From assembly GCA_947499725.1 (NCBI GenBank), contig CANMPK010000003.1, positions 186,001-250,000 of the forward strand: a DNA stretch of 64,000 nt. The letters are read 5' to 3'. Below, in pieces: positions 6,372 to 53,036 of this stretch. Position 1 is the stretch's first letter, and the number at the start of each line of letters is the position of its first letter. The stretch is from an uncultured Paracoccaceae bacterium. GTDB lineage: Bacteria > Pseudomonadota > Alphaproteobacteria > Rhodobacterales > Rhodobacteraceae. Position numbers and translations under genes: made by a program. The notes beneath the pieces are model-generated. The model made no database searches. It had not been told where the DNA came from and saw only the letters and a list, made by a program, of their open reading frames with translations.

Positions 6372-7178
6372 ATGGACATGATCCTAGAATTTGCGCAAAG
6401 CAATGCGGGTGTTGTTGTCAACGCGGCCAAGGCGCTTGCGGTTCTGGTCATCGGTTGGATGGTTGCTGGGCTGGTGAGTGGCGTGATCCGTCGCCGTGTT
6501 TTGGCGAGTGAGACGATTGACGATACGATCGGCAATTTTGTGGCGTCGATTGTGAAGTGGGTCATCTTGCTGATGGTTCTGATTGCGGTGCTGGGGCTGT
6601 TTGGCATCCAAGCGACCAGCCTTGTGGCGATTATGGGCGCGGCGACTTTGGCCATTGGTATGGCTTTGCAAGGCACGCTGTCTGATTTGGCGGCTGGGTT
6701 TATGTTGATCCTGTTCCGGCCTTATAAGCTGGGTCAGGTGGTTGATATTGCGGGCACAATGGGCACGGTGAAAGACATCAACCTGTTTGTGACTGAATTG
6801 GCGACGCCAGATAATGTGCAGATTATTGTGCCAAACGGGCAGGCTTGGGGATCTGTGATCACCAACTACAGCCATCACGCGACACGCCGTGTCGATCTGG
6901 TGTTTGGCATCGATTATTCCGACGACATCGAGAAAGCCAAGGCGATCATTCTGCGTCTGGCGGATGCGGATGCGCGGGTGGCGTCTGATCCTGAACCTTG
7001 GGTGCGCGTGACCAATCTGGGCGATAGCTCGGTTGATTTGACGACCCGCGTTTGGGTGGCTGCCGAAGATTACTGGGATGTGAAATTCGGCATGACACAG
7101 GCGGTTAAGGAGGCCTTTGACGGGGAAGGCGTTTCTATTCCTTATCCGCATACGGTGGAGATCAAGCGAGAAGCTTGA
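6372..7178 (+). CDS. MscS-family small-conductance mechanosensitive channel
   Basis: 268 residues, the size of the minimal MscS type. The start ATG 6372 follows AAGGA at 6360-6364. Three N-terminal TM helices are visible. The pore-lining TM3 is rich in Gly and Ala (MGAATLAIGMALQGTLSDLAAG) and is followed by the FRPYKLGQVV beta-domain entry and a mixed alpha/beta C-terminal cytoplasmic chamber. Acts in the inner membrane to release solutes on hypo-osmotic shock. Downstream of mscL on the same strand. Confidence 0.93.
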   Translation: MDMILEFAQSNAGVVVNAAKALAVLVIGWMVAGLVSGVIRRRVLASETIDDTIGNFVASIVKWVILLMVLIAVLGLFGIQATSLVAIMGAATLAIGMALQGTLSDLAAGFMLILFRPYKLGQVVDIAGTMGTVKDINLFVTELATPDNVQIIVPNGQAWGSVITNYSHHATRRVDLVFGIDYSDDIEKAKAIILRLADADARVASDPEPWVRVTNLGDSSVDLTTRVWVAAEDYWDVKFGMTQAVKEAFDGEGVSIPYPHTVEIKREA

Positions 7179-7226
7179 TCCTGCCAAAGGGGCGAGCTTC
7201 TGAGGGGTGGCTCGCCCCACCTGATT

Positions 7227-7511
7227 TTACATCAGGATGATGTTTGAAATGCCAGAGGCACGGCGTAGGGCGTGGACCTCGGCAAAATCAGGATCGGTGA
7301 TCCATGCGTTGGCATGATCGCGATCTGGAAATTCCAAAATCACTGTAACGTCTGGCGTGTCGATCTCGCCTTCGATCACGCGGGCTTCGCCGCGGGTGAC
7401 GTGCAGCGGCTTGCCGCCGTGTTTGGCCATGGCTGCGCCGGCTTGCTCGCGGTAGCTGTTGAAGGTTTCTGGGTCTTTGACGGTGACTGTGACCATTGCA
7501 TAGGCTGACAT
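7227..7511 (-). CDS. DUF1330 domain protein
   Basis: 94 residues from MSAYAMVTVTVKDPE; the longer open frame to 7718 is rejected because it would cross the divergent LysR gene. DUF1330 proteins are small dimeric alpha-beta barrel folds (ABM/EthD-like). The family signature is visible as YREQAG, VTVILEFPDRDHANAW and FAEVHALRR. Biochemical function of the family is not established. It is divergent from a LysR regulator at 7609 across a 97-bp gap holding a dyad, so it is probably the target of that regulator. Confidence 0.88.
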   Translation of the reverse strand: MSAYAMVTVTVKDPETFNSYREQAGAAMAKHGGKPLHVTRGEARVIEGEIDTPDVTVILEFPDRDHANAWITDPDFAEVHALRRASGISNIILM

Positions 7512-7556
7512 GGGCTGTCCTTTCGTTGTGATGGGGGGAGAATAGCGGCACATGGC

Positions 7557-7574
7557 ATGATTGAAATTGATCAT
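7557..7574. promoter_or_regulatory. Candidate LysR operator (ATGAT-N8-ATCAT)
   Basis: Dyad ATGAT (7557-7561) / ATCAT (7570-7574) in the divergent DUF1330-LysR intergenic region, about 35 bp before the LysR start. Size and placement fit a LysR recognition box. No experimental basis. Confidence 0.35.
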
Positions 7575-7608
7575 TGTCGCATTCCGCTTGTGCAAATATG
7601 ATCGGGCT

Positions 7609-8514
7609 ATGTTGGACTGGAATGATCTGAAATATGTGCTGGAGACGGCCGAGCAAGGCGGGATCAGCGGGGCTGCGCGGGTGCTTGGGGTGAACCATGC
7701 CACGGTGGCGCGGCGCATTTCGGCGGCCGAAGAGGCGCTTGGCGCGCGGTTGTTTGAGCGTTTGCCCAGCGGCTATGTGCCCACAGAGGCTGGGCTGGAT
7801 GCGGTGAACACGGCGCGGCAGATGGCGCGGATGCAGTTTGATTTGGATCGCCAGATTGGCGCGCGGGATACGGAACTGTCGGGCGTGTTGCGGGTGACGG
7901 CCTCGGAATTGCTGTGCGAGCGTATTCTGTCACCCATCTTTGCGGGGTTTATCGAGGCGCATCCCGAGATTGATCTGCGCCTTGTGGCGACCAATGATCC
8001 GCTGAACATGGCGCAGCGTGAGGCGGATGTGGCCATTCGCTTTTCGCAGAAGCCACCTGAGGCTTTGGTGGGGCGCTGTGTGATTTCCCCTAAGGGCTCT
8101 GTTTATGCGAGCCGTGCCTTGATGGCGGATGATAAAGGCGGCGAGGCTCCGCTGGATTGGATCCGCTTTGCCCATTGGCCCGGTCCGCCGCCTGAGGTGA
8201 AGGCGGTGCGCCCGTACTTGCGGGTGCGGATGACCGTGGATGATATGATCTCGGCCATTGGCGCGGTGCGGGCGGGGATTGGCGCGACGCGGATGGGCTG
8301 TTTTCTAGGAGATGCGGACCCTGAGATGATGCGGGTGCCGGGGATGCCCTTGTTTGACTATCTGCCGCTGTGGGTGCTGACCCATGCAGATCTGAAACAT
8401 GTGCCGCGTATTCGGGCCTTTACGGACTATGTGACCGCAGGTTTGCTGGCACAGAAGGATTTGTTTGAAGGGCGTTGTGTTTCTGAAGAAGAAACGGCGT
8501 CAGGGGGCCAATAA
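7609..8514 (+). CDS. LysR-family transcriptional regulator
   Basis: 301 residues from MLDWNDLKYVLETAEQGG, a typical LysR N-terminus; the frame is open upstream to 7561 but the dyad operator sits there. Winged HTH at about residues 4-62 (VNHATVARRISAAEEALGARLFERL), then the two-lobed effector domain. The V-N-H-A-T-V-A-R-R form of the recognition helix is common in proteobacterial LysR proteins that read short target palindromes. It is divergent from the DUF1330 gene. An 11-bp hairpin overlaps its stop codon. Confidence 0.9.
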   Translation: MLDWNDLKYVLETAEQGGISGAARVLGVNHATVARRISAAEEALGARLFERLPSGYVPTEAGLDAVNTARQMARMQFDLDRQIGARDTELSGVLRVTASELLCERILSPIFAGFIEAHPEIDLRLVATNDPLNMAQREADVAIRFSQKPPEALVGRCVISPKGSVYASRALMADDKGGEAPLDWIRFAHWPGPPPEVKAVRPYLRVRMTVDDMISAIGAVRAGIGATRMGCFLGDADPEMMRVPGMPLFDYLPLWVLTHADLKHVPRIRAFTDYVTAGLLAQKDLFEGRCVSEEETASGGQ

Positions 8515-8537
8515 GGACCATTCACGGGCCCCCTGAC
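8499..8537. terminator. Long hairpin between convergent LysR and ald genes
   Basis: Perfect 11-bp inverted repeat, GTCAGGGGGCC (8499-8509) and GGCCCCCTGAC (8527-8537), with a 17-nt loop containing the LysR stop codon. No U-tract follows, so intrinsic termination is uncertain, but the place between convergent genes suits a bidirectional 3' end. Confidence 0.4.
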
Positions 8538-8564
8538 GGTTGCCCCTTGCGGGGCGGGGGAGCC

Positions 8565-9683
8565 TTAGCGCTTGAGCGCCAGGGCGGGTGAAACCACATC
8601 CATGCCGAGGGCTTTGCCCACTGCGACATAGGTCAGATTGCCAGCATGGACATTCAGACCATTCAGAAGGTGCGGATCATCGGTGCAGGCTTGGCGCCAG
8701 CCCTTGTCAGCGAGGCTGAGCATGAAGGGCAGGGTGGCGTTGCTGAGCGCCTGCGTCGAGGTGCGCGCCACGGCGCCGGGCATATTGGCGACGCAGTAGT
8801 GCATGATGCCGTCGACATTGTAGATCGGGTCGGCGTGGGTGGTGGCTTTGGAGGTTTCAAAGCACCCGCCTTGGTCAATCGCCACATCCACCAGAACCGC
8901 GCCTGGTTTCATGTCGGACAATTGCGCGCGGCTGATCAGTTTTGGCGCAGCGGCACCCGGGATCAGAACCGCGCCAATGACCATGTCGGCCTCTGCGATC
9001 AGTTCGGCTGTGGCGCCTGCGGTGGAGTATTGGTTTTTGAACGTGCCACCAAAGACATCATCCAGATACCGCAAACGCGCCAAAGAGCGATCCAGTACGG
9101 TCACATCTGCGCCCATGCCTGCGGCGACTTTGGCCGCATGTGTGCCCACAACACCGCCGCCGATCACGACGACTTTAGCAGGGGCCACGCCCGGCACGCC
9201 GCCCATCAGAACGCCGCGGCCTCCGTTGGCTTTTTGCAGCGTATAGGCGCCCACTTGTGGGGCCAAACGGCCTGCGACTTCGGACATTGGGGCCAGCAAA
9301 GGCAGGCCGCCATTGGCGTCTGTCACGGTTTCATAGGCAATCGCTGTGCAGCCGCTTTCCAGCAGATCTTTTGTCTGTTCTGGATCGGGCGCAAGGTGCA
9401 GGTAGGTGAACAAAAGCTGCCCCTCGCGCAGCATTTTGCGTTCGACCGCCTGAGGTTCTTTGACCTTTACGATCATCTCTGCCGTGGCGAAGATGTCTTC
9501 GGCGGTATCGAGCAGCGTGGCCCCCGCAGCCACGTAATCTGCATCGGTGAAGCCCGCGCCCATGCCGGCGCCGGTTTGCACGTAGACCTCATGGCCATGC
9601 ACCACGGCTTCGCGTGCGGCGTCTGGCGTCAGGCCGACGCGGAATTCTTGGGGTTTGATTTCTGTTGGGCAGCCTATTTTCAT
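8565..9683 (-). CDS. ald: Alanine dehydrogenase
   Basis: 372 residues, the usual length. Catalyses reversible NAD-dependent oxidative deamination of L-alanine to pyruvate and ammonia. The start ATG at 9683 follows GGAGGCGACC. Visible: the N-terminal catalytic domain ([20 protein letters not shown]), catalytic Lys/His region in VKVKEPQ and FTYLHLAPD, the NAD-binding [20 protein letters not shown], and the C-terminal part [17 protein letters not shown]. Divergent from an Lrp/AsnC regulator, the arrangement known for AldR-controlled ald. Confidence 0.96.
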
Positions 9684-9775
9684 GGTCGCCTCCTTTAGTG
9701 TCACTCAAGCTTAATTTGACGCGAGTTTTGAAAAATATGTTGCTGTTCTTTGCGGGGTGCGGCAGGTTTTGAGGG

Positions 9776-9792
9776 AGATTCTTCGAGAATCT
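9776..9792. promoter_or_regulatory. Candidate Lrp/AldR operator
   Basis: Perfect dyad AGATTCT-TCG-AGAATCT in the ald-Lrp intergenic region, 30 bp upstream of the Lrp-type gene start. Placement suits an operator for the divergent pair. Inferred. Confidence 0.4.
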
Positions 9793-9821
9793 GAGGGATA
9801 CTCGCATAAAGGTTCGATGAA

Positions 9822-10280
9822 ATGACGTTAGATCAGTTGGATCGTCAGATATTGAGGGTTTTGCAGAAGCAAGGACGCATTTCGAATGCGGATTTGTCAG
9901 AGGCGGTGAACCTGTCGCCGTCGGCCTGTCACCGCCGCGTGCAGCGGTTGGAAAGTGACGGGTATATTCGCGATTACGTGGCCCTGCTGGATGCGCGTAA
10001 GATGGCTGTGCCCACGACGGTATTTGTGGAGATCACCCTGTCTGGGCAGGCCGATGAGGTGCTGGATGCGTTTGAGAAAGCCGTGGCGCGGATACCGGAT
10101 GTGCTGGAGTGCCATTTGATGGCGGGGTCGGCGGATTATCTGCTGAAGGTGGTGGCTGAAAACACCGACGATTTCGCGCGTATTCACCGGCAGTATTTGG
10201 CGCGTTTGCCGGGTGTGGCGCAGATGCAAAGCTCGTTTGCTTTGCGGACAGTCTTTAAGACGACGGCTTTGCCGGTTTAG
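9822..10280 (+). CDS. Lrp/AsnC-family regulator (AldR-like)
   Basis: 152 residues. N-terminal HTH (LDQLDRQILRVLQKQGRISNADLSEAVNLS region, residues 2-45) followed by the RAM/ACT-like effector domain with the family landmark VLECHLMAGSADYLLKV. Lrp/AsnC proteins form octamers that sense amino acids. Divergent position beside ald strongly suggests it controls alanine dehydrogenase, probably in response to alanine; that link is inference from synteny. Confidence 0.92.
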   Translation: MTLDQLDRQILRVLQKQGRISNADLSEAVNLSPSACHRRVQRLESDGYIRDYVALLDARKMAVPTTVFVEITLSGQADEVLDAFEKAVARIPDVLECHLMAGSADYLLKVVAENTDDFARIHRQYLARLPGVAQMQSSFALRTVFKTTALPV

Positions 10281-10306
10281 GGTTTTCTTTGCTTTGGGAG
10301 TTTGGT

Positions 10307-10355
10307 GCGAGGGGCTTTCGCCCCTCGCGTTTTAGGTATTTGAGCCAAGAAGAAA
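10307..10355 (+). repeat. Dispersed intergenic repeat, copy 1
   Basis: Perfect hairpin GCGAGGGGC-TTTC-GCCCCTCGC (10307-10328) followed by TTTTAGGTATTTGAGCCAAG and AAGAAA. It fills the gap between the convergent Lrp and GST genes and ends one base before the GST stop. Related copies are at 15607, 17528 and 21680. Confidence 0.6.
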
Positions 10356-11228
10356 TCAGGTGGTTTCTGATTGCAGCTTGTCTTGGGTTTGGGTGTCGAA
10401 GTCTGCGGCGCTGTGGCGTTCGTGCAGCTGCAGTTCCAGATCCCCAAAGGCGCGGTTGACCATGCGGCCGCGTTGCACGGCGGGGCGGGCGTCGATCTGT
10501 TTGGCCCAACGCATAACGTTTGTGTAGCTTTCCACATCGAGGAACTCTGCCGCATCATAGAGGCGGCCCAGAACCAGTTGGCCGTACCATGGCCAGATGG
10601 CGATGTCGGCGATGGTGTAGTCTTCGCCGCTGATAAACGTGTTGTCTGCCAACTGGCGATCCAGCACATCCAGTTGGCGTTTGGTTTCCATGGTGAAGCG
10701 ATCAATCGGGTATTGGAATTTTTCCGGCGCATAGGCGTAGAAATGGCCAAAGCCGCCGCCCAGATAGGGCGCGCTGCCCATTTGCCAGAAGAGCCAGTTG
10801 AACATCTCTGGCCGTTTAGCGGGATCGCTTGGCAGGAAGGCGTTAAACTTTTCGGCCAGATGCAGCAAGATCGAAGCGGACTCAAAGACGCGGGTTGGCG
10901 GCGTTGTGGTGTGGTCCAGAAGCGCTGGGATTTTGGAGTTCGGGTTGATGTCGACAAAATCCGAGCCGAATTGATCGCCATCGCCGATGCGGATCAGCCA
11001 TGCGTCGTATTCTGCGTCTGAATGACCTGCGGCGAGCAGTTCTTCGAACATCACCGTGACTTTCACGCCGTTGGGCGTGGCCAGCGAATAGAGTTGGAAC
11101 GGGTGATCGCCCACGGGCAATTCTTTGTCATGGGTCGCGCCGGCAATGGGGCGGTTGGTGGAGGCCCATTCGCCGCCGTTTTCTTGATCCCATGTCCAGA
11201 CTTTAGGCGGAGTATATGTATCGCTCAT
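10356..11228 (-). CDS. Glutathione S-transferase family protein, YghU-like
   Basis: 290 residues from MSDTYTPPKVWTWD. The N-terminal extension, thioredoxin-fold domain (FQLYSLATPNGVKVTVMFEELL), cis-proline region NPNSKIPALLDH and Ser/Glu-Ser step FESASILLHLAEKF, then a helical C-terminal domain, match the YghU/YfcG group of disulfide-bond reductases and organic hydroperoxide GSTs. Probably cytoplasmic, glutathione-dependent. It stands alone; its 3' end abuts a dispersed repeat. Confidence 0.9.
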   Translation of the reverse strand: MSDTYTPPKVWTWDQENGGEWASTNRPIAGATHDKELPVGDHPFQLYSLATPNGVKVTVMFEELLAAGHSDAEYDAWLIRIGDGDQFGSDFVDINPNSKIPALLDHTTTPPTRVFESASILLHLAEKFNAFLPSDPAKRPEMFNWLFWQMGSAPYLGGGFGHFYAYAPEKFQYPIDRFTMETKRQLDVLDRQLADNTFISGEDYTIADIAIWPWYGQLVLGRLYDAAEFLDVESYTNVMRWAKQIDARPAVQRGRMVNRAFGDLELQLHERHSAADFDTQTQDKLQSETT

Positions 11229-11347
11229 CTTTGGTTCCTGTTCGATTAGGATGTGACTTGCAGATAAGGTAAGGCCCAAGAGCGGATATTGCACCTGCTC
11301 TTGGGCCTGAATTTTTGCACAGTGGTCGTGCATAGATGTGTGGGGGC

Positions 11348-23923: not shown

Positions 23924-24373
23924 AGTGGATCGCTTTGATGGCTTGCTTGAATCGCGTCTGATGCAGGTTAAGCGTTGGGGGGCGGCGCGTCCACCGGATT
24001 GCGCGGATCGGGGGCATTGAGTGCTGGCGTTTTAAGGCGCTTCGGTTTTGCGCTGCTGTGCAGCACAGCCGAAAACACGTGGCGTGGCGAGGTGGAATCA
24101 TCACAAGGCAAGCCGAGCGATTTCACGGGAATTGCCCAAAAAAGGTAAAGCGTGCTGATTTTTAAGGCTTTTTTGCTACGCCTATGTTTTGGGCATCTGT
24201 TAACGTTTCCGTGAGACACTGCGAGAAACTTGCGCAGACCGCCCCAAGCAATGCGCCTTTTTTAGGCAGTTGCGGGTGGTTTTATGCTGCGCCCGCAGAA
24301 AGCTTTGACCTTCTTTAAACTATTTAGAACTCTGAAGAGGCAACAACGGTGTTGTCGACGCACATGTCGCTAA
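23924..24373. other. Intergenic region between dnaX and the redox cluster
   Basis: 450 bp between two divergent genes with no credible coding frame. It is AT-richer than its surroundings in 24120-24340. I see a GC hairpin TGCGGG (24271-24276) / CCCGCA (24292-24297) and a half Irr-type motif TTTAGAAC at 24323-24330, too incomplete to call. It should carry both promoters. Confidence 0.5.
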
Positions 24374-26443
24374 ATGTGCAATCGCCGAGCAAAGAGGCTC
24401 TTCTTTTTTGGGACAGGTTTGTCTCAATTTGCCAGCTTGTCTCGGAGCCAGCCGTTGAATTTGAATTTACGCCCAGAGCCTGTGTCTCACCCTGTTGCCG
24501 ATGCATCCGACGTTCTTGTTGTCGGGGGCGGTCCGGTCGGGGTTCGCGTGGCGCAGCTGTTGGCTCAAGCGGGGCAGCAGGTGGTGCTGCTGGGCGATGA
24601 AACCCATGATCCTTATAACCGTGTTCGACTGACACCGCTTTTGGGCGGGGATGTGCAGTTTGGCGAAATCAGCCTGAATGTATCGGAAGACAGCCAAGAG
24701 GGCTTGGCGCTGCACACGGGGCAACGTGTGGTGCAGATTGATCGCGACCGGCAGGTGGCGATTGGGGCGAATGGGCAGGAATGGCCGTATAAAACTTTGG
24801 TTTTGGCCACAGGTTCGCGCGCTTTTGTGCCGCAAATTCCGGGTGTGGATTTGGATGGTGTGTACCGTTTTCGTACAGCGGATGACGCATCAGCTTTGCT
24901 GGCGCGGTCTTTCTCGGCGCGGGATGTCACGATTGTTGGGGGCGGCCTTTTGGGGCTAGAGGCGGCGCGCGGTTTGGCGCGGCGCAATTGTAAGGTCACC
25001 GTGGTTGAACACGAAGATCGCCTGATGCCACGTCAGTTGGATACGGCGGCGGCGGTGCATCTGAAAGAACGCATCGAAGAGCTGGGCGTGACCATTCACA
25101 CGGGCACGCGGGTGAATGAAATTTCCGGCATGGGGCGCGTGGAAAGCGTGATCCTGTCAGATGGCAGCGAAATCAAAAGCGATGCGGTTGTGGTTTGCGC
25201 GGGGGTGCGCGCCAATATCGAGCTGGCGAGCGAAAGCGGTCTGCCGATTGAGCGCGGTATTCTGGTGGATGACCAGATGCAGACGCGAGATCCGAACATC
25301 TTTGCCGTGGGCGAATGTGCGCAGCATGGCGGGCAGGTGATTGGCTTGGTTGGCCCGGGTTATGCACAGGCCGAGGTGGCGTCGGATGCCATTCTGGGCA
25401 AAACCGCAAGCTATGTGCCGCAGATCAGCGCAACAAAGCTGAAGGTGATCGGTGCGGATGTGTTCTCGGTTGGCGATGTGGAAAAGCTGGAGGTGCGTCA
25501 CAACGTCAAAAGCCACATCTGGCAATCAGAGACCGCCTATCGGCGAGTGTTTATCGAGCGAGGCAGATTGGTTGGCGTGATCGCCGTCGGAGAATGGGAT
25601 CAGGCCAGCCGCATGCAGGATGCGGCGCAGACCGGCGAGGCGGTTTATCCGTGGATGCTGTATCGCTTCCGTAAGGCGGGCTCTTTCTGGGTGGAGGCCG
25701 AGGAAGAGATGATGGACATGCCGGATACGGCCACTGTCTGTAACTGTACGGGCGTGACCTGTGGGCAAATTCGCGGGGCGATTGCGGGCGGCGCGATGGA
25801 TGAAGAGGCGATTGGGCTGAAGACCGGCGCGGGCACAGTGTGCGGCACCTGTAAGCCTTTGCTTTCTGAACTGATTGATGCCGGTGCGCCGCCAAAGGCA
25901 GTGCGGTTCTCGAAGCCCTTGGTGGCGATTTCATCTGTGGCGGTGTTCTTGGCGTTGATCCCTGTGTTGATCGGCTATGTGCCGCTGCCGCAATCTTATT
26001 CGGCAGACAGCCTGCGTGATTGGGCATGGCGCGACAATATCGTGAAACAGTGGAGCGGCTATATCCTGCTGGGCATTCTATGCGCTGCGATGGTGATTGG
26101 CCTGCGCAAGCGTATTCGGTTCTTTGACAAGCTGGGCGGCTATGATGGCTGGCGGTTTGTCCATATCGCCATTGGTCTTTTGGCGGTGTTTGGTTTCTTT
26201 GCCCATACGGGTTTCCGTTTGGGCTCTAACTTGAATTTCGCCTTTGGCGTGGCTTTCGTGGCGACCTTGATTTTGGGCGCTGTCGTGGGGCTGGCGACGG
26301 GGGGCGATCATAAACTTCGGGAACATCGCATTGGTACGGCGCGCAAACCTGCGCGCAGGGTGCCGGCGTGGCTGCATATTCTGGCGGTTTGGCCGCTGCC
26401 GGTCTTGGCCCTGTTCCACATACTAACGGTGTACGCATTCTGA
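24374..26443 (+). CDS. Fusion: NirB-like FAD/NAD(P)H oxidoreductase + BFD [2Fe-2S] + membrane cytochrome b
   Basis: 689 residues from ATG 24374, just after an in-frame stop; GTG 24482 (residue 37) is an alternative start that removes a tail without homology. Order: FAD-binding VVGGGPVG (about 49-56); NAD(P)H-binding VGGGLLG (188-194); FAVGEC (310-315) closing the FAD site; a BFD-like [2Fe-2S] site with C456, C458, C490 and C493; then about five TM helices (517-689). Two late helices each carry His pairs 14 residues apart (H597/H611 and H668/H682), the pattern of a dihaem cytochrome b. I infer that it takes electrons from cytoplasmic NAD(P)H across the membrane. Its stop overlaps the next start by one base. 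Confidence 0.82.
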   Translation: MCNRRAKRLFFFGTGLSQFASLSRSQPLNLNLRPEPVSHPVADASDVLVVGGGPVGVRVAQLLAQAGQQVVLLGDETHDPYNRVRLTPLLGGDVQFGEISLNVSEDSQEGLALHTGQRVVQIDRDRQVAIGANGQEWPYKTLVLATGSRAFVPQIPGVDLDGVYRFRTADDASALLARSFSARDVTIVGGGLLGLEAARGLARRNCKVTVVEHEDRLMPRQLDTAAAVHLKERIEELGVTIHTGTRVNEISGMGRVESVILSDGSEIKSDAVVVCAGVRANIELASESGLPIERGILVDDQMQTRDPNIFAVGECAQHGGQVIGLVGPGYAQAEVASDAILGKTASYVPQISATKLKVIGADVFSVGDVEKLEVRHNVKSHIWQSETAYRRVFIERGRLVGVIAVGEWDQASRMQDAAQTGEAVYPWMLYRFRKAGSFWVEAEEEMMDMPDTATVCNCTGVTCGQIRGAIAGGAMDEEAIGLKTGAGTVCGTCKPLLSELIDAGAPPKAVRFSKPLVAISSVAVFLALIPVLIGYVPLPQSYSADSLRDWAWRDNIVKQWSGYILLGILCAAMVIGLRKRIRFFDKLGGYDGWRFVHIAIGLLAVFGFFAHTGFRLGSNLNFAFGVAFVATLILGAVVGLATGGDHKLREHRIGTARKPARRVPAWLHILAVWPLPVLALFHILTVYAF

Positions 26444-27939
26444 TGAAGCGCTTGAATACAAAACTCTTCTGGGCCGTTTGGGCGCTTCTGTCGATTGCAG
26501 GGGCGCTTTACGCCGCTAAAACGCTTTATGTGACGGGAGATCGGACTGTCTTGCTGCCGGGGGAAACGACTGGCGTGCACCACCAGTTCGAGATTTCCTG
26601 CCACACCTGCCATACGTCAGACGATTTTGAAGACGTCAATTCGGTGCGCAAAGACATCAACAAGACCTGTGTGACGTGTCACAAGGACGAGCTGAAGGCG
26701 TCGAACGACAGCCACCCGATCAAGAAGTTCAAGAACCCGCGGATGGCGGATTTTTGGGAGAAGATTGATGGTCGCTTCTGCACAAGCTGCCATGCGGAAC
26801 ACTCGCCCGAAGCGACGTTGCATGCAGGTGTGACTTTGCAGGGTGATTTCTGCGTGGCCTGCCATTCGGAGGGCGATCAAGATGTGCGCCAGAACCGTGA
26901 AAGCCATGCAGAGCTGACCTTTGACACTTGTGCCAGCTCTGGTTGCCATAACTATCACGATAACCGCGCACTGTATGAAGATTTCCTTGTGAAACACGGC
27001 AATATGCCTTGGGTCAAAGAAGAGCCTGTGCATTTGCCAGCGGCTCTGTCCCGTACGCCATCCGAGGCGGTTGCGGATATTGAAACCTATCTGGCGACTG
27101 TGGATACAGCGCTGCCTGCGTATGATGAGACGATTGCCCATGATTGGGCAGCGTCGGCCCATGCGGCGGGTGATGTGGGATGTGCAGGTTGCCATGCGCC
27201 AGAAGCCACCAATGAGGCAGAGATTGAAACGCAATGGGTGGAAGCGCCAAGCGAGGCGGTTTGTGCCGATTGCCACCGCAATGAGGCAAAAACCTTTGCG
27301 CTGGGTCGCCACGGGATGCGTCGCCATCCTGAAATCGCTGATCCGCGGGATGCCAAGCGGAGCTTGAAAGACCTTGGCTTCTCTGATCCGCCAGAGGCGA
27401 TGGTGCGCCTGATCGAAGCCTATCTGGCAGACCCTGATGCGCCACAAGCGATGTCTACATCCGAAGCACGCGTGTCTTTGAAGCCTGAAGCCCATGGCCA
27501 AGATTTGACCTGTAGCACCTGCCATGATCCGCACGCGCAGGATCTGGATTTCGCCGCCGTGGATGCCTGCCTGAGCTGCCATAACGACGAGCATTCGACA
27601 TCTTACAAAGACAGCACGCACTTTGCTTTGTGGTTTGACGAAAAAGACGGGCTCTTGCCTCCGGGCAGCGGCGTGACTTGCGCGACCTGCCACATGCCGC
27701 AGTCCGAAAAGGGCGGCAAAGTGCTGACCAACCATAACCAGAACGACACCCTTCGCCCGAACGAGAAGATGATCCGTGCCACTTGCCTGTCCTGCCATAG
27801 CCTCGAGTTCGCCATTGATGCGCTCGCAGATCCAGAACTGGTGAAGAACAACTTCTCGGGCCAACCGAACCGCCACATCGAGAGTATCGATTGGGCGTTA
27901 AGACGTGTGGAGCCGACTGACACCGACGCCAATCAATGA
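26443..27939 (+). CDS. Undecahaem c-type cytochrome, cytochrome c3-like, membrane-anchored
   Basis: 498 residues from ATG 26443, overlapping the upstream stop (TGATG). An N-terminal helix (LFWAVWALLSIAGALYAA) anchors or exports it. Eleven haem c motifs: ten CXXCH and one CX4CH (CASSGCH). None is the CXXCK found in NrfA or octahaem nitrite reductases. The entry segment before the first haem (TTGVHHQFEISCHTCH) resembles multihaem cytochromes that take electrons from a membrane partner. The role as periplasmic acceptor of the upstream flavocytochrome is inference; the terminal substrate is unknown. Confidence 0.85.
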   Translation: MKRLNTKLFWAVWALLSIAGALYAAKTLYVTGDRTVLLPGETTGVHHQFEISCHTCHTSDDFEDVNSVRKDINKTCVTCHKDELKASNDSHPIKKFKNPRMADFWEKIDGRFCTSCHAEHSPEATLHAGVTLQGDFCVACHSEGDQDVRQNRESHAELTFDTCASSGCHNYHDNRALYEDFLVKHGNMPWVKEEPVHLPAALSRTPSEAVADIETYLATVDTALPAYDETIAHDWAASAHAAGDVGCAGCHAPEATNEAEIETQWVEAPSEAVCADCHRNEAKTFALGRHGMRRHPEIADPRDAKRSLKDLGFSDPPEAMVRLIEAYLADPDAPQAMSTSEARVSLKPEAHGQDLTCSTCHDPHAQDLDFAAVDACLSCHNDEHSTSYKDSTHFALWFDEKDGLLPPGSGVTCATCHMPQSEKGGKVLTNHNQNDTLRPNEKMIRATCLSCHSLEFAIDALADPELVKNNFSGQPNRHIESIDWALRRVEPTDTDANQ

Positions 27940-27984
27940 CGCCGGCTCCACACACTGCAACCTAGATAGTCACAGGAGACTAAT

Positions 27985-28563
27985 ATGTACGACAAATTTA
28001 AAGGTTTGAAAGCCTCTGTTTTGGCAGGTGCTTTGGCCGTGGGCGCGATGCAGCCTGCAACAGCTGAAGAAGGTCTGGATTTCCAAACAGTATCTGACCT
28101 GCTTCACCTGGTGATGAGCTCTGACCGTACGGTTTACACACGTATGATCGTGAACCGTCTGGCGGTTGAAGAGAAGGTGATCACAGCGTCTGAGCACTTT
28201 GAAGACGACAAAGCTCTGGTTCTGCCAGCGCAGATGTTCCGCTTCGGCTCTGAAATGGTGGCAGAAGAGACGGATGCGTTCTCTTACTCCCTGCTGTCCC
28301 TATGGCCAATCAACAAGCAGAACGCGCCTTCCACACCGCTGGAAATCGAAGGTCTAGAATATCTGGCTGAAAACCCAGGTGAAAACTTCTATGGCGAAGA
28401 AGAGCTGGGCGGCGAGAAATACTTCACAGCCTTCTACCCAGATATCTCTGTGGCTGAAGCTTGCTCTAAGTGCCACAACGAGCACAAAGACAGCCCGCGC
28501 ACCGACTTTAAAGGTGGTGACGTGATGGGTGGTGTGGTGATCCGCATCCCTATGGATAGCTAA
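27985..28563 (+). CDS. Tll0287-like (DUF3365) haem c protein
   Basis: 192 residues with a Sec signal peptide cleaved near ATAEE. The rest is the DUF3365/Tll0287-like fold, a PAS-like alpha/beta domain covalently holding one haem: CSKCH (C160-H164) near the C-terminus, followed by DFKGGDVMGGVVIRIP, the family ending. In many proteins this domain is the sensor of kinases or cyclases; here it is free-standing in the periplasm, so electron transfer or ligand binding is likelier. Starts after CAGGAGACTAAT; its stop overlaps the next start (TAATG). Confidence 0.85.
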   Translation: MYDKFKGLKASVLAGALAVGAMQPATAEEGLDFQTVSDLLHLVMSSDRTVYTRMIVNRLAVEEKVITASEHFEDDKALVLPAQMFRFGSEMVAEETDAFSYSLLSLWPINKQNAPSTPLEIEGLEYLAENPGENFYGEEELGGEKYFTAFYPDISVAEACSKCHNEHKDSPRTDFKGGDVMGGVVIRIPMDS

Positions 28564-29009
28564 TGCGGTTCGCTGCCGTAATGGGAGCGATGTTCGTTTG
28601 CGCCAGCATGGCGCAAGCGGACAGTCCGGTTGTTGCAGATCGGGGGCTGGACGGTTTCGTTTCAGTCGACCGTCTGCCTGTCCCTGAGGCTTCGTTCTTG
28701 CAAGACGGCCGCACCATCTGGGCGGACACTTGCGAAGGCTGTCACGGCGGCAACAAGTATGTCGGTGCTCCGAAAATCACCTCTTTAAGGGCTTGGGAAC
28801 CACGTATCGCGCAGGGCATGGAGATCTTGATCGACCATGCAGTGAACGGGTTCGTTGGGCCAAAATACACAGAAATGCCACCACGCGGCGCCAACCCTGA
28901 TCTGACAGACGAACAGGTCGCGGCTGCGGTGGCCTTCATGGTTTGGACAAGCGGCGGGGATGCCGTTGTCGAAACCTATTTAAAGACACTCATGGGAGAA
29001 GGTTCATGA
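28563..29009 (+). CDS. Class I c-type cytochrome
   Basis: 148 residues with a signal peptide ending near MAQADS, so periplasmic. One haem motif CEGCH (C57, C60, H61) and a probable axial methionine at M105 (YTEMPPRG), as in cytochrome c5-like proteins. Its start overlaps the stop of the DUF3365 gene and its stop overlaps the globin start (ATGA), showing tight translational coupling. Likely the soluble carrier of the five-gene cluster. Confidence 0.88.
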   Translation: MRFAAVMGAMFVCASMAQADSPVVADRGLDGFVSVDRLPVPEASFLQDGRTIWADTCEGCHGGNKYVGAPKITSLRAWEPRIAQGMEILIDHAVNGFVGPKYTEMPPRGANPDLTDEQVAAAVAFMVWTSGGDAVVETYLKTLMGEGS

Positions 29010-29425
29010 CCCCCGAACAAATCGATCTGGTGCAGACCAGCTTTAAGAAAATCGCACCTATCGCGGAAACAGCAGGCCAAATTTTCTATGACCGCCTGTT
29101 TGAAATCGCACCAGACGTCCGCCCTCTGTTTCCAGAGGTTATGACCGATCAGCACAAGAAACTGATGCAGATGATTGGTGTGGCGGTGAACAGCTTGAAA
29201 AACCTTGAGGCGATCTTGCCTGCGGTTCAGGAGTTGGGCGAGCGCCACAACGGCTATGCGGTGACAGATGAGCATTATGACACTGTTGCTGAAGCGCTGA
29301 TTTACACCTTGGGTAAGGGTCTGGGTGATGACTTCACACCGGAATGCCAAGAGGCGTGGACACTCACCTATGTGACTTTGGCGAATGTCATGAAAGACGC
29401 GCAGCACGCTGCGGTAGAGGCCTAA
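29006..29425 (+). CDS. Single-domain bacterial globin
   Basis: 139 residues, the length of Vitreoscilla-type haemoglobin, without a flavin reductase domain. Proximal histidine in ERHNGYAV (H81, F8); distal side around [18 protein letters not shown]. Such globins bind O2 and NO and can dioxygenate NO when re-reduced. No signal peptide, so cytoplasmic, on the same side as the NAD(P)H domain of the first gene of the cluster, which could be its reductase. ATGA overlap with the cytochrome c gene. hemA follows 112 bases later. Confidence 0.92.
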
Positions 29426-29537
29426 CAACGCCTTAAAGACATCGGTGGGGCCTGACCTGATTTGGGCCCGCCAAGCCAGCGCAGGGGGTTTTTTTACCGC
29501 CTTGCGCCCGCCAAGACGAATGAAGGACGACACGACC

Positions 29538-30752
29538 ATGGATTTTGATAGCCTGTTCACCGCGCAGCTCGACACTTTGAAAGCGGAAGGCAACTATCGC
29601 GTTTTCGCCGAGATGGAGCGCCGCTGCGGGGCCTTCCCGAAGGCAGATACACATGCAGACGGGGGCAAGCGCGAGGTCACGGTGTGGTGCTCGAACGACT
29701 ATTTGGGCATGGGGCACCATCCGGATGTTGTCGCTGCCATGTGTGAAACCGCAGCAGCCTGCGGCACAGGGGCGGGCGGCACACGCAATATTTCCGGCAA
29801 TATGCACCAGCATATCGCGCTAGAACGCGAATTGGCGGATTTGCACCACAAAGAGGCAGCTCTGGTGTTCACCAGCGGTTATGTTTCTAATTGGACAACC
29901 CTTTCGACACTGGGCAGTCGTATCCCCAATGCGGTGATCCTGTCAGACGAATTGAACCACGCCAGCATGATCGAAGGCATTCGCCACAGCCGTGCAGATA
30001 AGGTGATCTGGAAGCACAATGATCCAGAGGATTTGAACCGCAAACTGCAAGCGATTGGGCCGGATCGCCCGAAGATCATCGCCTTTGAATCGGTTTATTC
30101 CATGGATGGCGACATCGCCCCGATTGCGGAAATTTGCGACGTGGCGGATGCCCATGGCGCGATGACTTATCTGGACGAGGTGCATGCGGTTGGCATGTAC
30201 GGCCCGCGCGGCGGTGGCGTGGCTGAAGCAGAAGGGCTGATGGATCGTCTGTCGATCATCGAGGGCACTTTGGGCAAAGCCTATGGCACCTTTGGCGGCT
30301 ATATCGCCAGCTCTGCTGCGACGATTGATTTCATCCGTTCGTTTTCCAGCGGCTTTATCTTCACCACGGCCATCCCGCCAGCGGTGGCCGCCGCGGCGAC
30401 GGCGTCTATTCAGCATTTGAAAGCCTCGCAGCTTGAGCGCGCAGCGCAAAAGCGTCAGGTCGAGAAGCTGCGCAGTATGCTGGATGCGCGCGGCATTCCG
30501 CATATGCCGAACCCGTCGCATATCATTCCGGTGATGATCGGAGATCCGGTGAAGTGCCGTATGATTTCAGAAATGCTGCTGCGGGATTTTGACATCTATG
30601 TGCAGCCGATCAACTACCCAACCGTTCCGAAAGGGACCGAGCGTTTGCGCATTACGCCAGGCCCGATGCATTCGGATGCGGATATCGAACATCTGGTCGG
30701 CGCGCTGAGCAGCATGTGGGAACAATGCCAACTGGCCAAAGCAGTCGCATAA
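29538..30752 (+). CDS. hemA: 5-aminolevulinate synthase
   Basis: 404 residues from [12 protein letters not shown], the canonical N-terminus; an ATG at 29520 is less likely. PLP enzyme condensing glycine and succinyl-CoA to ALA, the first step of alphaproteobacterial haem synthesis (C4 route). Seen: [14 protein letters not shown], the glycine loop [24 protein letters not shown] and the PLP lysine in [15 protein letters not shown]. Downstream of the multihaem/globin genes on the same strand; cotranscription would match haem supply to these haem-rich proteins. Confidence 0.96.
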
Positions 30753-49612: not shown

Positions 49613-51217
49613 ATGAAGGATACCGTCAAGCTGATCGCATTGGGGCTCATCACCCTTTTTGCGATGATTGCCGCCAACTATGCCCGAGACCTTGCCTATA
49701 TGGTGCAAGCGCTGATCATCACGCTTGTCTCTGGAGGCTTGTTCATCTGGGTTTTGCGCGGGGTCGGCGAGGAGAAACCCGCCATCTCGCAAACCGAATA
49801 TATGGATGACGTCATCCGCGCCGGCGTGATCGCCACTGCCTTTTGGGGCGTTGTGGGCTTTCTGGTTGGGGTGTTCATCGCCTTCCAACTGGCCTTTCCG
49901 GTGCTGAACTTTGAATGGGCGCAGGGCTTGGCCAACTTTGGCCGCTTGCGCCCGCTGCACACCAGTGCGGTGATCTTTGCCTTCGGGGGCAACGCCTTGA
50001 TCGCCACATCGTTCTACGTGGTGCAACGCACCTCTGCCGCGCGTTTGTGGGGCGGCAATTTGGCGTGGTTTGTCTTTTGGGGCTACCAGCTGTTCATCAT
50101 TCTGGCGGCCACTGGCTATTTGTTTGGCGGCACCCAGTCCAAAGAATATGCCGAGCCTGAATGGCACGTGGATATCTGGCTGACCATCGTCTGGGTGGCC
50201 TATCTGGCGGTCTTCCTAGGCACCATCATCAAACGCCGCGAAAAGCACATCTACGTCGCCAATTGGTTCTACCTTGGCTTCATCGTCACCGTGGCCATGC
50301 TGCACTTGGTGAACAACCTCACCATTCCCGTCAGCATCTTTGGCAGCAAATCCGTGATCATCTACAGCGGCGTGCAAGATGCGATGGTGCAATGGTGGTA
50401 CGGCCACAACGCCGTGGGCTTCTTCCTCACCGCAGGCTTTCTGGGCATGATGTACTACTTCGTGCCCAAACAGGCGCAGAAACCTGTGTTCAGCTACAAG
50501 CTGTCGATCATCCACTTCTGGGCGCTGATCTTCCTGTATATCTGGGCCGGTCCGCACCATTTGCACTATACCGCGCTGCCCGATTGGGCGAGCACGCTGG
50601 GCATGGTCTTTTCCATCATCCTCTGGATGCCAAGCTGGGGCGGCATGATCAACGGGCTCATGACCCTGCAAGGCGCATGGGACAAGCTGCGTACCGATCC
50701 GGTGATCCGCATGATGGTCGCTTCGCTGGCCTTCTACGGCATGTCCACCTTCGAAGGCCCGATGATGTCGATCCGCGCGGTCAACAGCCTCAGCCACTAC
50801 ACCGATTGGACCATCGGACACGTGCATTCCGGCGCCTTGGGCTGGAACGGGCTGATCACCTTCGGCGCGCTTTATTACCTCGTGCCGGTGCTGTGGAAAC
50901 GCGAGCGTCTCTACTCACTCTCCATGGTCAGCTGGCACTTCTGGCTCGCCACAATTGGCATCGTTCTCTACGCCGCCAGCATGTGGGTCACCGGCATCAT
51001 GGAAGGCCTGATGTGGCGTGAAGTCGATGCGAACGGCTTCCTGGTGAACAGCTTCGCCGACACCGTGGCCGCCAAGTTCCCGATGTATGTGGTGCGTGGT
51101 CTGGGCGGGGTTCTCTACCTCAGCGGCGCCATCCTCATGTGCGTCAACCTCTGGCTCACAGCGCGTGGCGCGCAAGACCGCAAGGTCTCGCTCACCACAG
51201 CCGTACCAGCAGAATAA
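49613..51217 (+). CDS. ccoN: cbb3 cytochrome oxidase subunit I
   Basis: 534 residues, 12 TM helices. Haem-copper oxidase core: high-affinity O2 reductase of the cytoplasmic membrane. Visible ligand histidines: [11 protein letters not shown] with LHT before it, the CuB helix [19 protein letters not shown], and the haem pair in [16 protein letters not shown]. The first ~40 residues are the subunit's extra N-terminal TM. First gene of ccoNOQP, preceded by an FNR box. Confidence 0.97.
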
Positions 51218-51231
51218 GGAGGGCTCAGACA

Positions 51232-51960
51232 ATGGCCATTCTCGACAAACACAAATTGATCGAAACCAACGCAACCCTTCTGCTGATCCTCAGCCTTCTG
51301 GTGGTCAGCATCGGGGGGATCGTGCAGATCGCCCCGCTGTTCTGGCTGGAAAACACGATCGAGGATGTAGAGGGCATGCGCCCCTACACCCCGCTCGAAC
51401 TGGCCGGGCGTGACATCTACATCCGCGAGGGCTGCTACACCTGCCACAGCCAAATGATCCGCCCCATGCGCGACGAAGTCGAACGTTACGGGCACTATTC
51501 CTTGGCGGCAGAATCCAAATACGACCACCCGTTTCAATGGGGCTCTAAACGCACAGGGCCCGATCTGGCGCGGGTTGGCGGACGCTATTCTGATGATTGG
51601 CACGTGGATCACCTGATCGATCCGCAGTCTGTCGTGCCGGAATCCGTGATGCCAAAATATGGCTTCCTCACGCAGAAACGTATCGATGGCGACCACATCG
51701 CGGATCTGATGAAAGCCAACGCCATAGTCGGCGTGCCTTACACCGAAGACATGCTGGCCAATGCCTATCACGACTTCTCCGCCCAAGCGGATCCAGACAT
51801 GGATTACGACGGCCTGCTAGAGCGCTACGGCGACGATGTGCCCGTACGCAATTTTGATGGGCAAAGCGGCACCACCGAAATGGATGCGCTGGTCGCCTAT
51901 CTGCAAATGCTGGGCACGCTGGTGGATTTCTCCACCTTCACCCCTGATGCCAACCGATAA
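51232..51960 (+). CDS. ccoO: cbb3 cytochrome oxidase subunit II (monohaem cytochrome c)
   Basis: 242 residues from [11 protein letters not shown], 14 bases after the ccoN stop and after AAGGAGG. One N-terminal TM ([18 protein letters not shown]), then a periplasmic cytochrome c with CYTCH and methionine ligand region MPKYGF. Passes electrons from CcoP to the haem b/b3 centre. Confidence 0.97.
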
Positions 51961-51972
51961 CAAGAGGCCCCT

Positions 51973-52167
51973 ATGGAAACCTATACGCTTCTACGCCAAT
52001 TCGCTGACAGCTGGATGCTTTTGTTCCTGTTTCTGGTCTTTTCAGGCGTGATCTTCTGGGCCTTCCGCCCGGGATCAAAGGCCGCCTATCAGGAAACCGC
52101 CAGCATTCCCTTTCGCAACGACGATGCACCAGCGCCCCAAAGCGCTGACAGCCAAGATGAGGGCTGA
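51973..52167 (+). CDS. ccoQ: cbb3 oxidase subunit CcoQ
   Basis: 64 residues, one TM helix ([18 protein letters not shown]) and a polar tail. Small stabilising subunit of cbb3 oxidase. Lies 12 bases after ccoO and 2 before ccoP. Confidence 0.9.
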
Positions 52168-52169
52168 TC

Positions 52170-53036
52170 ATGAGTAAGAAATCACACGAAAAACCCGATG
52201 TGCCCACCACCGGCCACAGCTGGGATGGGATCGAAGAATACGACAACCCAATGCCGCGCTGGTGGCTCTGGACCTTCTACATCACCATCATCTGGGGCAT
52301 CGGCTACACCATCGCTTATCCCGCGTGGCCGGGCATTCAATCGGCCACTTCAGGCTTGCTGGGCTACTCCACCCGCGCCGAGGTGACAGCCGAGATCGCC
52401 GCCGTGGATGCACGCAACGCTGAAATCAACGCGCAGCTCGCCAGCACGGATCTCACAGCGATCAAAGCCGATCCAAACCTTAACAGCTTCGCCACATCCT
52501 CCGGCGCGGCCGTGTTCAAAACATGGTGCGCGCAATGCCACGGCTCTGGTGCAGCCGGGGCCAAGGGCTATCCGAACCTTTTGGACAACGATTGGCTCTG
52601 GGGCGGCGACATCGAAGCGATCCACGAAACCATTCGCGTCGGCATCCGCACGGATGAACATTTCGACACCCGCTATTCCGAAATGCCCGCCTTTGGCCGC
52701 GATCAGTTTCTGGAAAAACCGCAGATCGAAGCGGTTGTGAACTTCGTGATGTCTCTCTCAGGTGATCCGCTCGATGCTTCAACTGTCGCTGAGGGTGCAG
52801 AGGTCTTCGCCGGAAACTGCGCAAGCTGCCATGGCGAACAAGCCGAAGGCGACCGCAGCCAAGGCGCGCCCAACCTGCGCGATGCGATCTGGCTTTATGG
52901 CGGCAGTTACGATGACATCTATGAAACGGTCTTCAACAGCCGCTATGGCGTCATGCCCAACTGGGACACTCGCTTGACCGAGGCGCAAATCCGCGCCGTG
53001 GCCACCTATGTGCATCAGCTCGGCGGTGGGGAGTAA
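52170..53036 (+). CDS. ccoP: cbb3 cytochrome oxidase subunit III (dihaem cytochrome c)
   Basis: 288 residues. One N-terminal TM ([19 protein letters not shown]) with the family entry [14 protein letters not shown], then two cytochrome c domains with CAQCH (C120-H124) and CASCH (C217-H221). First electron acceptor of the oxidase. Ends with a bidirectional terminator shared with the convergent DUF1304 gene. Confidence 0.97.

Follow-up and report, generated by a model that had tools for sequence, protein, structure and literature searches.

A window of 64,000 nucleotides from an uncultured Paracoccaceae bacterium (contig CANMPK010000003.1, positions 186,001 to 250,000; by window we mean this whole stretch) carries at positions 24374-29425 a cluster of five forward-strand genes, whose products we interpret below as a candidate system for moving electrons across the inner membrane. 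The first, P1 (24455..26443), encodes an NAD(P)H/FAD oxidoreductase resembling the N-terminal half of NirB, joined to a Rubredoxin_C domain, a BFD [2Fe-2S] domain, and a C-terminal membrane domain. P2 (26443..27939) is an 11-haem cytochrome c whose N-terminal helix is probably an anchor, P3 (27985..28563) a Tll0287-like (sCache_heme) monohaem c protein, P4 (28563..29009) a monohaem cytochrome c, and P5 (29006..29425) a single-domain globin. Reading of the open reading frames (ORFs) and Pfam assignments verified all five genes with the domains that a preliminary description of this DNA had given them. That description also held that four of the genes are joined by overlaps; the overlaps at 26443 (1 nt), 28563 (1 nt), and 29006 (4 nt) are real, but P2 and P3 do not adjoin, lying 45 nt apart, and the coupled groups are thus P1-P2 and P3-P4-P5. 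The ATG at 24374 that was marked as the start of P1 falls within a predicted RNA leader and is probably wrong; the start is probably a TTG at 24455, which is preceded by GGAG at 24444-24447 and yields a protein of 662 amino acids.

A conserved core in two types of locus

Many genomes keep P2, P3, and the membrane domain of P1 together, and these three form a conserved core. A pattern search of named genomes matched 456 stretches, 385 of which encoded a relative, and the best 80 loci were kept. We designated as type A those loci that have the NADH module and as type B those in which the membrane domain occurs without it, which gave 31 type A loci (with L013 reassigned manually to this type, as its contig begins within P1), 46 type B loci, and 3 untyped loci (L044, L067, and L079). 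P3 is present in 31/31 type A and at least 42/46 type B loci, P4 in at least 22/31 type A loci, and P5 in at least 28/31, with P4 and P5 found in 0/46 type B loci; these counts are lower bounds because some contigs end early. The type strain Actibacterium mucosum (L023) has all five genes. The gene order of the cluster, for which the preliminary description knew of no characterised counterpart, therefore recurs elsewhere. Strong P2 relatives were found in 8 of 198 genomes of the family, the genome of the window included, and these eight loci hold P1 (8/8), P3 (8/8), P4 (6/8), and P5 (7/8). That search returned 12 matches in all, from which we excluded four weak multihaem matches (L009-L012; E 4.6e-8 to 2.6e-4, 27-30% identity, short cover) as unrelated cytochromes.

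The second type of locus replaces the NADH module with an unexpected partner. A GPP34 (GOLPH3-like) sequence lies near the membrane domain in 45/46 type B loci and in 0/31 type A loci; it is fused to the membrane domain in the type B ORFs that were read and forms a separate downstream gene in L043 (PF05719 scores of 153 bits in L041 and 185.4 bits in L043). The sole type B locus without it, L047, has a sequence that starts 606 nt before P2. Type B loci form a branch of metagenome-assembled genomes (MAGs) of Alpha- and Gammaproteobacteria, many of which we take to be sponge symbionts, although the MAG titles do not say so; the named Rhodobacterales with the system are presumably marine. In a tree of 79 P2 proteins, a 47-row branch (100/100) comprising 45 type B and 2 untyped rows is nested in a larger set that includes type A rows; L013 is labelled type B in this tree, and its midpoint rooting does not show the direction of change between the types.

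Further observations concern the integrity and movement of these loci. In L008 (728-2184, genome G005), P1 ends near residue 286 and continues directly into the latter half of P2 (residue 271 onward); P3-P5 are in place, and the junction looks like an internal deletion. Two or three GPP34-type copies lie on different contigs in three cases (L041, L048, and L053 of one MAG; L066 and L075; L054 and L059), unless these are mixed bins. Spread by plasmids was rejected after a search of 72,556 plasmid records returned no match at E <= 1e-20.

Haem sites of the core proteins

The Pfam domains of P1 are Pyr_redox_2, Rubredoxin_C, and Fer2_BFD. With the NirB model TIGR02374, whose cut-off is 578.35, P1 reaches 385 bits and matches profile positions 2-468 of 794, the diaphorase half only, and no sirohaem domain is among the Pfam matches listed (25 of 30 families). 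Because the sirohaem half is absent, we do not read P1 as a nitrite reductase, and the earlier label "NirB-like" does not hold in that sense. The two His pairs that had been noted in its membrane part are kept: H597/H611 and H668/H682 (numbered from 24374), with 14 residues of spacing within each pair, are invariant in 73 aligned sequences (the window and 72 of the 80 loci). Omitted from this alignment were L020 and L032 (in-frame stop in P1), L051 and L065 (matches that stop at residue 641, short of the second His pair), L044, L067, and L079 (membrane domain not found or short), and, by oversight, L059. A structural model (mean pLDDT 84.2) places the pairs on helices 91-113 and 163-173/175-189, and the domain is expected from its sequence to bind two b-haems. 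A fold search with the domain gave no match at E <= 0.001, its top hit being cytochrome b561 with NarI, SpNOX, and STEAP lower, all at E >= 0.2, and a profile search gave a single match, to a reaction-centre small polypeptide at E 0.16.

P2 contains ten CXXCH motifs and one CX4CH motif, which agrees with the eleven haem c motifs originally counted, and its Pfam matches are Cytochrom_c3_2 and Paired_CXXCH. This make-up is found in 77 of the homologues, the other 2 having eleven CXXCH motifs. In 79/79 sequences (L059, with an in-frame stop, and the short L079 were omitted), each of the 11 motif His is invariant and so are 11 further His, and these 22 residues suggest a wire of bis-His haems that would carry electrons rather than catalyse a reaction. 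The catalytic haem of NrfA is bound by CXXCK, a motif that occurs in 0/79 homologues of P2. In a scan with models of known nitrite and hydroxylamine enzyme families, P2 passed no cut-off, which does not support the possibility raised at the outset, that it is simply a member of such a family. P2 reached 71.5 bits with TIGR03508 (DmsE/MtrA decahaem; cut-off 192.2), its similarity to NrfA and the 8-haem nitrite reductases is confined to short haem-pair segments, and its structural model (mean pLDDT 74.3) matched no fold in the Protein Data Bank (PDB) at E <= 0.001, the hydroxylamine oxidoreductase (HAO) fold giving a weak match at E 0.05.

P3 matches PF11845 at 72.2 bits (cut-off 24.1), shares 58-91% identity with 73 homologues, and retains its CXXCH motif in 74/74 sequences; the alignment omits L044, L046, L048, L061, L068, L072, and L079, in which P3 was not found or was short. 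An axial Cys ligand has been described for Tll0287 itself (sections of PMC12889525). The only Cys in the 74 sequences are those at positions 160 and 163, within CXXCH, plus residues at 13-14, in the signal-peptide region, in ten of them; the axial Cys of Tll0287 is thus absent. When P3 was used for a profile search of the PDB, nothing matched at E <= 0.01. P4 is assigned to Cytochrome_CBB3 and has by eye a signal-peptide-like N terminus, and P5 is assigned to Globin (PF00042), with no reductase domain on the same protein.

A predicted NasT-type leader and the nitrogen genes of the genome

The element bound by ANTAR proteins is defined, in the parts of PMC3369931 cited here, as a pair of hairpins, each with a stem of 3 bp or more and a six-base loop in which the first letter is A and the fourth G. 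The predicted leader of P1 (24339..24409, + strand) has this form, with a first hairpin GGCAAC[AACGGT]GTTGTC at 24339-24356 and a second, GAGC[AAAGAG]GCTC, at 24387-24400, followed by TTCTTTTTT. Scanning with 4-bp stems required and G-U pairs allowed, we detected tandem A..G hexaloop hairpins in 22/31 type A leaders (window included), or 19/31 under a stricter loop choice. Dinucleotide shuffles gave a mean of 1.08 and a maximum of 5 in 200, and mononucleotide shuffles a mean of 1.07 and a maximum of 3 in 100; 15 alternative choices of loop letters gave 0-5/31, and 430 nt from the start of the P2 gene, used as a control, gave 1/30. Base-pair covariation was left out as evidence since pairing formed part of the selection, and an Rfam search of the leader region gave no match. 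We predict on these grounds that the leader is a NasT-type antitermination element.

The genome itself supplies a plausible regulator and a second candidate target. Its one ANTAR protein found is NasT-like and lies in a nitrate-assimilation cluster. Its neighbours there are an NMT1-like NasS candidate, transport genes of the nrtA type, NirB, and two ORFs named by sequence and position, one like NirD and one like NasA, that scored below cut-offs; the true NirB, at 890.2 bits and above its cut-off, is located away from P1. The hairpin-2 pattern GRGCAANGNNGCTC has three matches in the genome: the P1 leader, the nrtA leader, and the inside of an ABC transporter gene. The nrtA leader also has a first hairpin, which makes a two-hairpin element there. 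ANTAR proteins occur in 8/8 genomes with the system, one of which has a truncated copy of the system, versus 100/198 in the family (hypergeometric value 0.0037), an enrichment that speaks for the proposed control. In Paracoccus, expression dropped severely when hairpin HI of the nasA leader was mutated, and a strain with the HI mutation in its chromosome could no longer grow on nitrate (sections of PMC5424462). L033 has nasS-nasT beside P1, and in this Rhodobacteraceae MAG a molybdopterin oxidoreductase-like gene set, named by eye, lies downstream of the operon (6711-11250); linkage of NasST to the operon as a general rule was rejected, since L033 is the only case among 80 loci.

A search of the genome for NirK gave no match. 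Its two COX1-family proteins look like the aa3 and cbb3 types by sequence and neighbours, which makes respiratory NO reduction by NorB unlikely. One of the two belongs to the cbb3-type oxidase genes ccoN, ccoO, and ccoP (named by sequence) at 49613-53036 of the window.

Neighbouring genes and other candidate regulatory sites

A gene for 5-aminolevulinate synthase (ALAS) lies 3' of the operon in the window (29514..30752, + strand; TIGR01821 at 657.6 bits, cut-off 338.55), in L086 (13207-14439), and in L089 (6462-7643). The transcription unit may reach this gene, and ALAS could supply haem for the complex; a second ALAS-like gene, with 55% identity to it, lies elsewhere in the genome. An Rrf2-family regulator of the NsrR/RirA kind stands beside the operon in 11/80 loci of both types (L020-L022, L028, L030, L036, L037, L041, L045, L072, and L073). 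Among four of these that were scanned, RirA was the top model for two and NsrR for the other two, each score lying under both NCBIfam cut-offs, and with the genome of the window giving only a weak match (E 2.7e-5, 31% over 77 residues), control by NsrR was rejected. An inverted repeat at the marked P1 start, GCACAT-N8-ATGTGC, was likewise rejected as a repressor site, for it is in none of the other leaders of the 31-member set; the commonest dyad in type A leaders, CATTC-N9-GAATG, occurs in 4/31 (shuffle maximum 2).

Discussion

We interpret the cluster, at close to an even chance, as a transmembrane electron conduit that nitrate or nitrite induces and that defends against nitrogen oxides during nitrate assimilation. 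Conservation of the core, invariance of the haem sites, exchange of the input modules, and a dual-hairpin leader common with nrtA are computed observations; bound cofactors, substrate, electron direction, catalytic site, and NasT binding belong to the model that we build on them. Sensing of nitrate or nitrite would free NasT from NasS and allow transcription to pass through the leader. NAD(P)H would reduce the FAD and [2Fe-2S] cluster of P1 in the cytoplasm, from which electrons could take two routes: to the globin P5, which would convert NO and O2 to nitrate, or through the two b-haems across the membrane, then along the 11-haem wire P2 to P3 and P4 in the periplasm. There a nitrogen oxide, most likely NO, would be reduced, probably at the conserved P3, the best candidate site of NO chemistry. 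Transfer from P1 to the globin is postulated, as is NO as the substrate; P1 and P5 would fit the flavoprotein-globin pairing of Flp and Bjgb in Bradyrhizobium. The preliminary description had proposed much the same flow of NAD(P)H electrons to a periplasmic haem chain, with the globin drawing on the same flavoprotein to detoxify NO. It is partly supported, by the recurring gene order, the preserved His pairs of the membrane domain, the lack of any P2 score above a nitrite- or hydroxylamine-enzyme cut-off, the Bjgb/Flp precedent, and the leader, which independently suggests a link to nitrogen oxides; what falls away is the nitrite-reductase sense of "NirB-like".

A range of results weighs against this interpretation. 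On the side of chemistry, a wire of bis-His haems would have no evident catalytic site, three further P2 His are near-invariant (75-76/79) and make the ligand assignment uncertain, and a stand-alone Tll0287-type protein of Pseudomonas putida binds NO weakly (PMC12889525, section 12). No globin was detected in the type A loci L013, L014, and L034 or in any of the 46 type B loci, and since 45 of the latter have GPP34 instead, the core does not need a globin or an NADH module everywhere. Single in-frame stops, from decay or sequencing error, interrupt the BLAST match to P1 in L020, L032, and L091 (type A) and that to P2 in L059 (type B). On the side of regulation, 9/31 type A leaders have no detected tandem motif, and the 43 type B leaders used are not enriched (5/43; shuffled mean 1.85, maximum 6). 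The reversed GRGCAANGNNGCTC pattern gives 2 genome matches, so that the 14-mer on its own is weak evidence, and the tandem feature appears, by chance or otherwise, in 12/184 windows of 430 nt along the 20 kb around the nas genes. Hairpin 2 is followed by a T-run, yet no 5-bp intrinsic terminator passes a simple scan of the leader, which folds a little better than shuffles (z -1.16; 29/200 as good). The hypergeometric value for the ANTAR enrichment ignores phylogeny. The Rrf2 neighbours fit RirA, an iron regulator, as well as NsrR, which responds to NO. Finally, in denitrifying B. diazoefficiens, narK-bjgb-flp is up in a nasT mutant and NasT targets mostly lack the hairpin (sections of PMC6759348).

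A more ambitious reading strikes us as doubtful: that the cluster represents an undescribed class of transmembrane redox complex, composed of a di-haem b membrane protein, an 11-haem wire, and a haem-Cache protein acting as periplasmic NO reductase, with an exchangeable cytoplasmic input. This input would be NADH/FAD/[2Fe-2S] in Alphaproteobacteria (Thalassococcus and Actibacterium among them) and GPP34 in the second MAG branch.

It is unlikely, in our judgement, that the system is instead a transmembrane reductase for another periplasmic acceptor, such as the nitrogen oxides nitrite or hydroxylamine, with the globin as a separate NO scavenger. A nitrate/nitrite leader would suit nitrite equally well as NO, and P2 does show weak kinship to NrfA, the 8-haem nitrite reductases, and the HAO fold; the sequence likeness, however, is limited to short haem-pair segments, all 79 homologues lack CXXCK, and P2 has 11 invariant His to spare for its 11 haems. 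Iron or haem chemistry, in which periplasmic ferric iron or haem is reduced and ALAS and Rrf2 reflect iron control, we hold to be quite unlikely. The ALAS gene adjoining the operon in three loci and the RirA-leaning half of the scanned Rrf2 neighbours speak for it, but a NasT-type leader is a mark of nitrogen control, the families to which P5 and P3 belong suggest gas ligands, and haem demand would account for ALAS as well.

Inward flow, with P2 gathering periplasmic electrons and P1 passing them to NAD+ or assimilatory reductases, seems very improbable. The leader does group P1 with nitrate assimilation, and Flp of Bradyrhizobium has been proposed as donor to NasC (sections of PMC4724949); the flow would nevertheless run uphill unless the periplasmic donor were very reducing, and no redox module that could accept electrons is recognised in the GPP34 branch. 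Least probable of all, to us, is a redox- or NO-sensing assembly in which P1 and P2 set the redox state of a sensor P3. Its family does include a domain that senses NO with high affinity (PMC12889525, section 12), and P3 does not conserve the axial Cys; against this, the five operon proteins hold no signalling domain in Pfam and P3 is a stand-alone domain, a kind to which redox-related roles have been assigned (sections of PMC12889525).

If our favoured interpretation, the nitrate/nitrite-induced conduit, is right, the system ties nitrate assimilation to NO defence in a genome showing no NirK or NorB, and its NasT-type leader offers a handle, for nitrate should turn the operon on. The core would be a widespread and apparently unnamed route of electrons through the inner membrane, and no family model that we used names it as a unit.

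Comparison with known systems

Our literature searches found no published description of this cluster, which joins two known kinds of system, multihaem transmembrane electron transfer and flavoprotein-globin NO defence, in a combination for which we found no earlier report. P2 resembles MtrA/DmsE and NrfA/HAO in repeating CXXCH haem pairs, with weak matches, and differs from them in its 11 haems, its N-terminal anchor, its lack of CXXCK, and the absence of a significant fold match. With NirB, P1 shares the FAD/NADH and BFD modules and not the sirohaem/[4Fe-4S] half. P3 resembles Tll0287 and the sCache_heme (DUF3365) proteins in PF11845 and the conserved CXXCH, whereas it has no extra Cys outside the signal-peptide region and is coupled to a transmembrane wire; in the text of the 2026 preprint available for the Tll0287 family, the terms "operon" and "multiheme" occur 0 times, and the cluster offers a natural setting for this haem-Cache family.

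The closest characterised precedent is the narK-bjgb-flp-nasC operon of Bradyrhizobium, in which, under NasST, the flavoprotein Flp and the single-domain globin Bjgb detoxify the NO that arises from nitrate assimilation (sections of PMC4724949), and it bears out the earlier pairing of a flavoprotein with a single-domain globin for this purpose. Like that operon, the cluster has an NAD(P)H flavoprotein, a single-domain globin, and a predicted NasT-recognised hairpin in one operon (sections of PMC4724949 and PMC6759348). It differs in that its flavoprotein P1 also has a membrane part and a [2Fe-2S] domain of the BFD kind and is coupled to the 11-haem P2 and the Tll0287-like P3; nor does the operon include a nitrate reductase.

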